A DNA stretch of 13,779 bases from NCBI GenBank assembly GCA_002694945.1, contig NZNP01000089.1, forward strand, positions 28,251-42,029, written 5' to 3'. Positions 618-8,331 of this stretch are shown in pieces. The DNA comes from Gammaproteobacteria bacterium (GTDB taxonomy: Bacteria > Pseudomonadota > Gammaproteobacteria > Pseudomonadales > Azotimanducaceae). Position 1 is the first letter of the stretch; every line of letters begins with the position of its first letter. The position numbers and the translations under genes were made by a program. The notes beneath the pieces are model-generated. The model worked only from the letters and a program-made list of their open reading frames with translations, searched no databases and was not told where the DNA came from.

Positions 618-1097
618 ATGACAGAAAAGCTTGTAGGGGGTGATGAATTTCCATCACTATCTCTAAATACTGCGGGCGGAAATGCACTAGTGCTACCCGG
701 CGACCTGGGAACTCCACTGACAATAATTCTGTTTTATCGTGGCCATTGGTGACCTTATTGTCGTCGCCTGCTGGCAGGTTACGAAGAGCGCCGTGAAGCG
801 TTTGAGGAGGAGGGTGTTAGTATCTTGGCGGGCACGGTCGACTCGGAAGAGGATACGTTGAAACTCGCGGAGCCACTGGGTTTTCCTTTAGCGTATGGTA
901 TGACACGTAACGATGCTGATCTTGTTGGTGCTTGGTGGGATGAACGTCGTAACCACATTCAACCCAGTGAGTTTGTGGTGAACCAACGTGGTAAGGTACT
1001 GATGTCGACCTATAGTAATTCTCCGATTGGGCGCATGGATCCGGAAGAAGCATTATCTTTGGTTAGATTTCTTAACACCCAAAGGCAAAAAAACTAG
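618..1097 (+). CDS. Peroxiredoxin-like selenoprotein with UPYC redox motif (in-frame UGA = Sec45)
   Basis: The frame from ATG 618 (preceded by a good ribosome site, GAGAGGTGG at about 606-614) runs 159 residues to TAG at 1095-1097 and is interrupted only by TGA at 750-752. Read through, residues 39-50 are FYRGHW-U-PYCRR: in the AhpC/TSA redoxin family the usual form is FYRGHWCPYC, so the UGA falls exactly on the first cysteine of the CxxC motif and Cys48 is kept as the resolving residue. Sequence on both sides is family-like: an N-terminal strand region before Sec45, then helix (YEERREAFEEEGVSI), AGTVDSEEDT, and a C-terminal FVVNQRGKVLMSTYSNSPIGR beta-hairpin region. The expected role is thiol/selenol-based reduction of peroxides or disulfides in the cytoplasm; no signal peptide is seen. 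Standard gene callers would split it or start at 825. A nonsense mutation or base error is the alternative. Confidence 0.85.
750..752 (+). other. Selenocysteine codon (UGA) in peroxiredoxin-like gene
   Basis: TGA codon 45 of the frame starting at 618. It lies between TGG (Trp44) and CCT-TAT-TGT (Pro-Tyr-Cys48), so it replaces the redox-active Cys of a CxxC motif. TGA differs from either Cys codon by a single third-position base. Elsewhere in the window TGA ends the MetF, BadH-like, PaaX-like and thioesterase genes, so it is a normal stop codon in this genome and local recoding is required. Confidence 0.8.
761..784 (+). promoter_or_regulatory. Candidate bacterial SECIS hairpin downstream of the UGA
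   Basis: Starting 8 bases after the UGA, the RNA can fold as UCGU (761-764) with ACGA (781-784), a C/U mismatch (765/780), then GCCUG (766-770) with CAGGU (775-779, one G-U pair), closing a CUGG tetraloop at 771-774. The loop starts 18 bases after the UGA, a distance usual for bacterial SECIS elements inside the coding region. Known bacterial elements usually have a G in the first two loop positions; that holds here only if the closing G770-C775 pair is open, giving a six-base loop starting with G. The fold was found by eye and no energy was computed. Confidence 0.5.
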
Positions 1098-1169: not shown

Positions 1170-2627
1170 ATGTTGTTGCAAGATACGTCCCTTTTAGAAG
1201 GTCGAGCATTTATTGATGGAGAATGGATTGATGCGGACTCGGGAGAGAGTACTCCAGTTACAAACCCGGCCACTGGTGAAGTTATTGCTGAGACAGCTAA
1301 GTGCGGGACCGCGGAAACTCGTCGTGCCATAGAGGCTGCGGAAAAAGCTTTACCTGGTTGGCGATCGAAAACTGCTAAAGAGCGAGCATCGATTATGAGA
1401 AGGTTCTTTGATCTCATGATAGAAAATCAGGAAGACTTAGCTCAGATTTTGACTGCGGAGATGGGGAAACCTCTCGCCGAAGCCAGAGTAGAAATAGCCT
1501 ATAGCGCGGGTTTTATTGAGTGGTTTGCAGAAGAAGGCAAGCGCGTCTACGGAGATACCATCCCTTCCCCTTCAAACGATAAAAGAATAGTGGTTATAAA
1601 AGAGGGTATTGGCGTCGTAGGTTGTATAACACCCTGGAACTTCCCTAGTGCAATGCTTGGCAGAAAGTTAGGGCCTGCACTCGGAGCTGGGTGCACGGTT
1701 GTATGTAAGCCCGCGAACGCAACGCCTTTATCTGCAACGGCCATGGCGGTTCTTGCGGAGCGCGCTGGCGTGCCTGCCGGAGTTATTAATGTTGTTTCGG
1801 GAAAAACCGGTGAAATTGGTGATGAAATTACATCAAACCCGATCGTACGCAAAGTAACATTCACAGGCTCGACTCCTGTTGGAAAACATCTAATGGTCCA
1901 GTGTGCGGCCACAGTCAAAACTACCTCCATGGAGTTAGGTGGCAATGCTCCTTTCATCGTTTTTGATGATGCAGACCTTGATGCTGCCGTCGAGGGCGCT
2001 ATCGCATCTAAATATCGCAACGCGGGTCAGACTTGTGTTTGCACTAATCGTATATTGGTTCAAGAAGCCATATATGATGAATTTTCTAAGAAACTTGCAG
2101 ATGAAGTTGCCAAATTAAAAATTGGAAATGGTGCAGAAGAGGATGTCACTATCGGCCCATTAATTGATGAGGGAGCAGCGAACACCGTTTGCGAATTTAT
2201 AGACGATGCGCTTGCGAAAGGAGCTAAGGCTATTGTGGGTGGAGGAAGATCCAGTTTGGGGTCTGCTTTTGTTGAACCCACAATTCTTACTGAGGCGACT
2301 AGAGACATGAGATTGTTTAGCGAAGAAATTTTTGGACCGGTTGCACCTCTTTTTAAGTTCGCGACGGAAGAAGAGGCCGTTGAGATGGCGAATGACACCG
2401 AATTTGGACTCGCTGCTTATTTCTATTCCCGTGATATTGGTCGAGTCTGGCGAGTTAGTGAATCTCTCGAATACGGTATCGTGGGCGTAAACGAAGGCAG
2501 CATCTCAACGGAAGTTGCGCCCTTCGGAGGTGTGAAGGAGTCTGGAAGTGGTCGCGAGGGTTCTAAATATGGCTTAGACGACTACACAGAGATTAAATAT
2601 CTATGCATGGGAGGTATAGATAGTTAG
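1170..2627 (+). CDS. gabD: NAD(P)-dependent succinate-semialdehyde dehydrogenase (GabD)
   Basis: This 485-residue protein matches the GabD branch of the aldehyde dehydrogenase superfamily along its whole length, and E. coli GabD is nearly the same size. It oxidises succinate semialdehyde to succinate, the last step of GABA and related degradation. Visible motifs: ITPWNF (153-158) of the cofactor pocket, Lys180, FTGST (231-235) of the Rossmann turn, general-base Glu255 in MELGGNAPF, nucleophile Cys289 in NAGQTCVC with Cys291 two residues on, and the C-terminal APFGGVKESGSGREGSKYG that is typical of the family. I chose ATG 1170 over a GTG at 1125 because MLLQDTSLLEGRAFIDGEW aligns with GabD N-termini; the site before it (TTGGAA) is weak. 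It lies 72 bp after the selenoprotein gene and may be cotranscribed. Its substrate could be another semialdehyde; no gabT or gabP is present here. Confidence 0.93.
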   Translation: MLLQDTSLLEGRAFIDGEWIDADSGESTPVTNPATGEVIAETAKCGTAETRRAIEAAEKALPGWRSKTAKERASIMRRFFDLMIENQEDLAQILTAEMGKPLAEARVEIAYSAGFIEWFAEEGKRVYGDTIPSPSNDKRIVVIKEGIGVVGCITPWNFPSAMLGRKLGPALGAGCTVVCKPANATPLSATAMAVLAERAGVPAGVINVVSGKTGEIGDEITSNPIVRKVTFTGSTPVGKHLMVQCAATVKTTSMELGGNAPFIVFDDADLDAAVEGAIASKYRNAGQTCVCTNRILVQEAIYDEFSKKLADEVAKLKIGNGAEEDVTIGPLIDEGAANTVCEFIDDALAKGAKAIVGGGRSSLGSAFVEPTILTEATRDMRLFSEEIFGPVAPLFKFATEEEAVEMANDTEFGLAAYFYSRDIGRVWRVSESLEYGIVGVNEGSISTEVAPFGGVKESGSGREGSKYGLDDYTEIKYLCMGGIDS

Positions 2628-7398: not shown

Positions 7399-8331
7399 TT
7401 GGAATCGACAGATAGTCCTACAGTATTACTGAAAGAGTTTACGCAACGTAAGCCTTTCAGAACCAGATCTTTGGTCATTACATTTTTTGGAGATATTGTC
7501 TCGCAGCACGGTGGTAATGTTTGGCTCGGTAGTCTGATTTCAGTTTTAGCGAAATTTAAGATTAATGAACGTTTGGTTCGTACTACGGTTTTTCGTTTGG
7601 TTCAGGATGATTGGCTTGAAGCGCATCGCTTAGGTCGACGGAGTTACTACCGCTTCAGCGAATATGGTAAGCAGGAATACGAAAGAGCTGCCAGACGAAT
7701 CTACTCGGTGCATGAGGCTGACTGGTCTGGAAGTTGGCAGTTAGTAATTTTAAGGGGAGTGAGTGAGGAGAGGAAAGAAAAGCTTTCGCGCTCGCTTCGT
7801 TGGCAAGGGTATCGCAGTGTGACAGCAGGTGTGTTGGCTAAACCGGGGGAGGGTGGTGGAGACTTGATCGAGACGCTGCGTAAATTTTCTGCACAGGATG
7901 AAGTGTTGCTTATGTCTGCAACCACGCCGGAAATATCCTCAGCAGAGATAATTCGTGACCTGGTCTATAAAAGCTGGCGATTAGACGAGGTTGCCCAAGG
8001 TTACAATCAGTTTCTAAATCGCTATAGACCAATCTTGAGTTGGTTTAAGAACAATGAAGGGGAAACGGAAACATTATTTGAAACGGCGTGCTTCGTACGT
8101 CTGATGTTAATTCAGGATTATCGCCGTTTACTGCTGCAGGAAGTACCTATTCCGCGGCGACTTCTACCAACCTCATGGCCTGGATTTGATGCTAGGCATT
8201 TAGCAGCAAAAATCTATCACATTTTAGGGCCTCTTTCGGTCAAATACATAAAGACAGAGCTCGAGAGCGCAAATGGTAACTTTCCTGAAGCGGCCCCTGG
8301 ATTCAGTAAACGATTTAATGAATTTTCGTGA
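7399..8331 (+). CDS. paaX: PaaX-family transcriptional regulator
   Basis: A 310-residue protein with PaaX family layout: an N-terminal winged helix at about residues 20-95 (PFRTRSLVITFFGDIV, LISVLAKFKINERLVRTTVFRLVQDDWLEAHRLGRRSYYRFSEYG), a central ferredoxin-like part (SWQLVILRG, WQGYRSVTAGVLAKPG, 112-150) and the C-terminal helical domain (LVYKSWRLDEVAQGYNQFL, then RLMLIQDYRRLLLQEVPIPRRLLPTSWPG). PaaX is a GntR-like repressor released by phenylacetyl-CoA. The start is TTG at 7399, supported by a strong site GGGAGGAG six to seven bases before it; there is no better ATG. Its divergence from the PaaK-like ligase suggests it controls that operon and itself, with the CoA ester made by the ligase as the likely effector. 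It ends with TGA. Confidence 0.92.
   Translation: MESTDSPTVLLKEFTQRKPFRTRSLVITFFGDIVSQHGGNVWLGSLISVLAKFKINERLVRTTVFRLVQDDWLEAHRLGRRSYYRFSEYGKQEYERAARRIYSVHEADWSGSWQLVILRGVSEERKEKLSRSLRWQGYRSVTAGVLAKPGEGGGDLIETLRKFSAQDEVLLMSATTPEISSAEIIRDLVYKSWRLDEVAQGYNQFLNRYRPILSWFKNNEGETETLFETACFVRLMLIQDYRRLLLQEVPIPRRLLPTSWPGFDARHLAAKIYHILGPLSVKYIKTELESANGNFPEAAPGFSKRFNEFS

Follow-up and report, generated by a model that had tools for sequence, protein, structure and literature searches.

We report that the forward-strand frame at positions 618–1097 of a 13,779-nucleotide stretch of DNA (the window; positions 28,251 to 42,029 of contig NZNP01000089.1, Gammaproteobacteria bacterium assembly GCA_002694945.1) is almost certainly a genuine selenoprotein gene, in which the UGA at 750–752 would encode selenocysteine (Sec). 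The evidence is that of sequence: an intact reading frame, a conserved UGA, a conserved downstream cysteine (Cys48), three genes of the Sec machinery in the same genome, and a fold model. The idea originated in an unaided reading of the DNA letters (the sequence-only reading), whose claims are taken up below alongside the results that bear on them.

A complete redoxin frame spans the UGA

The gene and its two proposed active-site codons are as follows.

618–1097, forward strand: gene for a peroxiredoxin (Prx)-like (AhpC/TSA-fold) predicted selenoprotein, 159 amino acids when the UGA is decoded as Sec, with a UPYC active site.
750–752, forward strand: in-frame TGA, the proposed Sec45 codon, located by translation; the same codon is TGA in relatives.
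759–761, forward strand: TGT codon of Cys48, kept, the proposed resolving partner of Sec45, located by translation and alignment.

When translated with TGA as a residue, the frame gives 159 residues with a single internal TGA, at residue 45, and ends in a TAG stop. The active-site sequence reads FYRGHW-U-PYC (U45-P-Y-C48), so that the TGA occupies the first position of a CxxC; translation and alignment thus both place it, as the sequence-only reading did, at the redox Cys of the family motif FYRGHW-C-PYC, with Cys48 retained. The purine-rich sequence GAGAGGTGG ends 3 bases upstream of ATG 618, and the closest upstream in-frame stop is a TGA at 504. That the frame codes for a complete redoxin-family protein was borne out by Pfam, in which AhpC-TSA (PF00578) matches residues 8–127 across the TGA (1e-15; 58.2 bits against a cut-off of 26), and Redoxin (PF08534) also matches the read-through across the TGA (4.6e-06). 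No NCBIfam model scored above its cut-off for the protein, SelL_rel_redox (NF040769) reaching 19 bits, below its curated cut-off of 120; the gene may therefore remain hidden in annotated genomes. As had been anticipated, gene calling by routine means would drop or truncate the product: in the absence of recoding, the only frame of at least 80 amino acids listed there is a TTG-started one of 90 amino acids from 825, which does not contain the active site. A scan of the window found no Rfam family above its gathering score and no tRNA.

Predicted fold and proposed function

The AlphaFold2 model of the protein has a predicted local distance difference test score (pLDDT) of 91.4 and is close to Prx structures, the best structural and profile matches being Bcp/PrxQ and Prx6-type peroxiredoxins (3hjp, 6q5v). 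The canonical Prx motif PxxxTxxC is, however, absent: in the profile alignment with 6q5v and 5xbq, R41 falls at the Pro and U45 at the Thr of this motif, and only C48 falls at the peroxidatic Cys. The label "peroxiredoxin-like" given by the sequence-only reading consequently fits the predicted fold and not the activity. Since Sec45 sits at the Thr rather than at the peroxidatic Cys, the protein is more probably an oxidoreductase than a classical peroxidase. It would be compatible with a genuine selenoprotein gene if the product were nonetheless a classical peroxidase (a peroxiredoxin) and not a disulfide oxidoreductase, and we hold this to be unlikely although worth keeping in view; against it stand the replacement of the catalytic Thr by Sec45 and of the motif's Pro by Arg41, together with the resemblance of the UxxC pair to ResA/thioredoxin.

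In the mechanism that we propose, SelB would bring Sec-tRNA to the UGA at 750–752, with the help of a hairpin immediately 3' to the codon, to yield a 159-residue single-domain protein with a peroxiredoxin/ResA-like thioredoxin fold. Sec45 and Cys48 would form a selenol/thiol redox pair, in which Sec45 attacks an oxidized substrate, which could be a protein disulfide or else a hydroperoxide; Cys48 would then resolve Sec45 as a selenenylsulfide, and a cellular thiol system would re-reduce the pair. We infer the insertion of Sec, the hairpin's role, the substrate and the reductant.

The UGA is retained among relatives

We searched 390 genomes of the order at a match threshold of E ≤ 1e-20. All 10 matching genomes, the window's own included, carry exactly one TGA, in every case at the Sec45 codon. 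A separate scan of contigs gave 121 stretches encoding a relative, of which 80 were kept as loci; the Sec45 codon is TGA in 11 of these and TGC or TGT in 69, although the search pattern spelled Cys and so favors Cys forms among distant relatives, a bias that the order search does not share. All 10 relatives at 57–70% identity have TGA, whereas the nearest Cys form (L055) is 48% identical. The eleventh TGA locus (L058, 50% identity) has a frameshift just before the TGA; in its genome, G400, selA is also split into pieces, which suggests an error-rich assembly.

To gauge conservation on either side of the codon, we compared the gene with six close relatives. After the TGA, 72–74 of 99 residues are identical, as against 24–26 of 40 before it, and the nonsynonymous divergence (dN) is 0.17–0.22 after and 0.30–0.36 before; synonymous change could be scored in just one comparison, being too large in the others.

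These data bear on two other ways of explaining the TGA. If the gene were a pseudogene, the TGA would have arisen by nonsense mutation from the Cys codon of the active site, and indeed TGA is one base away from TGC and TGT, and no tRNA-Sec was found in the window's assembly. Yet nine other genomes of the order, as well as the 10 relatives at 57–70% identity, share this TGA, and conservation is higher after it than before it, so we consider decay highly improbable. This accords with the earlier argument that a random nonsense mutation was unlikely to have struck this codon; Cys codons in close relatives together with a decayed frame after the TGA here, which the same reading had named as a refuting case, were not seen, the TGA being kept and the downstream frame intact. 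Since the TGA recurs in many separate genomes, a read error is also very unlikely. No more credible is a decoding of the UGA as some other residue (as Trp, or by near-cognate suppression) or the use of another genetic code by the genome, given that TGA terminates 4 of the 13 window frames checked, as the sequence-only reading had also noted of TGA in this window, that all 69 non-TGA homologues examined have Cys at this position, and that the genome holds selA, selB and selD.

A candidate SECIS hairpin follows the UGA

Downstream of the codon we found a predicted hairpin, a candidate selenocysteine insertion sequence (SECIS).

761–784, forward strand: candidate SECIS-type hairpin, stems UCGU/ACGA and GCCUG/CAGGU, loop CUGG, from fold prediction.

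The window's hairpin lies 11–34 nt past the first base of the UGA. Of the 21 TGA orthologues, 15 form a hairpin with a stem of 5 to 7 bp in one register, 12–30 nt after the U of the UGA; the window's copy and L022 have theirs in other registers than most relatives. At pair 17–25, G-C occurs 14 times, A-U once and U-A twice, with four of the 21 unpaired, and some pairs vary compatibly, although these rows are related and the counts are therefore not independent. In bacterial SECIS elements, a G is expected early in the apical loop; not every member here has one.

We compared the TGA set (n = 22; the 21 orthologues and a paralogue, L002) with the Cys set (n = 69). Against shuffled sequences, the best local hairpin centered 18–26 nt after the UGA was significant (p ≤ 0.05) in 12 of 22 TGA genes (mean z 1.82) and in none of the 69 Cys genes (mean z 0.05). 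This narrow range was chosen after the folds had been seen, so the wider range of 16–37 nt, with 9 of 22 TGA genes against 2 of 69 Cys genes, is the fairer figure.

Selenocysteine machinery in the window's genome and in the order

Contig C84, which carries the window, belongs to an assembly of 3.41 Mb in 146 contigs (86.55% complete, 5.32% contamination). The sequence-only reading had called for a search for selA, selB, selC and selD, and the first, second and fourth of these were recovered: SelA (518 bits) and SelB (421 bits) are encoded side by side on contig C8, and SelD (268 bits) on contig C102, all above curated cut-offs. The tRNA-Sec gene, selC, was not found in this incomplete assembly. 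About 1 kb from selB and selA, there are frames (L017:166-5191, in G000:C8) that, by their family features, we take to resemble mevalonate-pathway genes, which are unusual in Gammaproteobacteria; G240, a genome of the same genus, matches part of this stretch.

SelA and tRNA-Sec were also sought in 30 genomes of the order, namely the 10 carriers of the gene and 20 listed non-carriers. SelA is present in all 10 carriers, and the tRNA-Sec model matches above its cut-off in eight. In a ninth, G350, the match is just below the cut-off, and ARAGORN calls a tRNA-SeC (UCA). ARAGORN likewise called tRNA-SeC in all 12 loci retrieved, among them four of the eight above-cut-off carriers, and in the same-genus G240. 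One non-carrier above the cut-off, G006, proved to have a tRNA-Ser by ARAGORN, so the cut-off is not perfectly specific. Among the 11 TGA-carrying genomes behind named loci, SelA was found in 10, in two of these (G395 and G400) in fragments only.

Evidence on the other side

Several results weigh against a selenoprotein gene, or against the hairpin as part of one. The most direct is that Rfam, ARAGORN and DNA searches found no tRNA-Sec in the window's own 86.55%-complete assembly. ARAGORN detected no tRNA in the selA–selB stretch or the rest of contig C8, the selA–selB stretch holds no Rfam family above cut-off, and the part of C8 facing the same-genus tRNA-Sec gave no Rfam match at E ≤ 1. When the assembly was searched at the DNA level with tRNA-Sec genes from G240 (run with no positive control) and from G350 (a search that recovered G350 itself), no full match was returned. 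Six sub-threshold Rfam tRNA-Sec matches were rejected: two are tRNA-Ser, two tRNA-Leu, one tRNA-Trp and one tRNA-Phe (of 228 candidates at first look, 150 were scored), and a 23-base match on contig C18 is a fragment only. Most likely, the missing tRNA-Sec reflects the incompleteness of the assembly, as we infer.

SelA, moreover, does not track the gene closely. It is also present in 11 of the 20 order genomes that do not have the gene and in eight of nine Cys-bearing genomes examined (marginally in G402, at 26.6 bits), and one TGA carrier, G391 (behind L046), has no SelA match. Since SelA also occurs in Cys-bearing and non-carrier genomes, it is to be regarded as necessary and not specific.

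As for the hairpin, four of the 21 orthologues (L023, L024, L026 and L053) have only 3 bp there, and the window's own copy gives p = 0.25. The folding energy of positions +3 to +45, compared with synonymous-codon shuffles, gave a null result (mean z −0.21; 0 of 22 TGA genes at p < 0.05), and the TGA set also scores high in a control range farther downstream (4 of 22 genes, mean z 1.27), so that the background is not clean.

Possible gain and loss of Sec

A tree was built from 57 rows spanning residues 12–125 (20 Sec, 37 Cys), with 34 of 91 loci dropped, including L058 and the paralogue L002. On it the Sec/Cys label needs two changes, and the starred branches force two. Within a Sec clade (98/96), the Cys row L055 groups with the Sec row L027 as its sister (100/99). 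The simplest reading of this placement is that Sec was gained once and reverted to Cys once; the long branch of L055 keeps this from being final. The genome of L055 is the sole one of the nine Cys-bearing genomes with no SelA match, which is weak evidence, the completeness of these assemblies not being given.

The FYRGHW-UPYC proteins may thus form a distinct subfamily in which Sec arose once, became almost fixed in Pseudomonadales-type Gammaproteobacteria and reverted to Cys at least once (in L055, from a genome with no detectable SelA), a proposal on which we could be right or wrong in equal measure. If true, it would amount to a natural experiment, with Sec, hairpin and machinery all lost together. 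The pair of L027 (Sec) and L055 (Cys) allows the contribution of Sec to this fold to be compared. Two rows titled as metagenome-assembled genomes (MAGs) of Klebsiella pneumoniae (L050) and Myxococcota (L051) pair together inside the Sec clade, whose remaining named rows bear the titles Gammaproteobacteria, Pseudomonadales or OM182 clade; either these contigs are mislabeled or mis-binned, or there was transfer.

A second UPYC gene and the gene neighborhood

The window's genome contains a second candidate selenoprotein gene (L002:1111-1911; G000:C88:16914-17711), encoding 266 amino acids with the motif FFRAHW-UPYC and an N-terminal part that, by eye, is hydrophobic. Its family carries one TGA in seven of the nine matching genomes among the 390 of the order, the window's genome and six others, the two most distant being Cys forms, and it co-occurs, with TGA, with the window's family in the window's genome, G039 and G255. 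Close to the genes for relatives of this second protein, at L126:302-757 and L127:2925-3380, is a further frame whose stop is read at a W-stop-PPC site, possibly making two neighboring selenoprotein genes.

An aldehyde dehydrogenase gene lies just downstream of both UPYC genes (window 1170–2627; from about 2033 in L002), the two dehydrogenases being 47–49% identical; such a gene was not found beside other relatives among the loci searched. No conserved neighborhood was seen: apart from the gene's own remainder, no cluster occurred in more than five of 24 loci, the flanks of the order-search loci being about 1.5 kb at most. Elsewhere in the window, positions 7399–8331 encode a PaaX-type regulator (Pfam), and the genes around it resemble, by eye, aromatic or acyl-CoA catabolism.

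Comparison with known systems

Prx-like selenoproteins with UxxC have been in print since 2005, as the sequence-only reading implied in calling the class not wholly new. Three papers describe such forms: a Sargasso Sea study with a Prx-like family in which UXXC replaces TXXU (PMC1088965), a GOS study with "Prx-like 1" (pfam00578, UxxC, 225 sequences; PMC2398784), and a 2026 review listing a "Prx-like thiol:disulfide oxidoreductase" (PF00578, UxxC) predicted with high confidence (PMC13188914). Two further entries of the review, cd02970 "Peroxiredoxin-like family protein (AhpC/TSA)" and PF08534 "Redoxin family protein" (UxxC), share the same broad fold, but cd02970 is listed there with UxxS, where the window protein has UxxC.

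Our literature searches turned up no statement on the exact FYRGHW-UPYC subfamily, which does not show it to be unpublished. Among the papers listed for OM182 and selenocysteine there was none on the window gene, judging by title and the start of the abstract, and none of the terms sought is present in the deep-Sep paper (PMC12013277). Motif-letter matches in the other papers listed look, by the titles of these, like chance and are uninformative.

Among characterized folds, the W-C-P-H-C of the thiol-disulfide oxidoreductase ResA (3c71) aligns column by column with the window's W-U-P-Y-C, with Cys in place of Sec, although in sequence the two are distant (profile E 1.7e-10). The 3c71 chain is a variant; in natural ResA the motif is CEPC. 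Bcp/PrxQ and Prx6-type peroxiredoxins differ in having the PxxxTxxC motif, at whose Thr the window protein carries Sec. With the Prx-like UxxC selenoproteins as described in print, the window protein shares the PF00578 fold, UxxC instead of the TxxU of Prx, and the existence of both Sec and Cys forms, and it differs from those descriptions in its FYRGHW-UPYC signature. The window gene is almost certainly a further member of this already known class of UxxC Prx-like bacterial selenoproteins.
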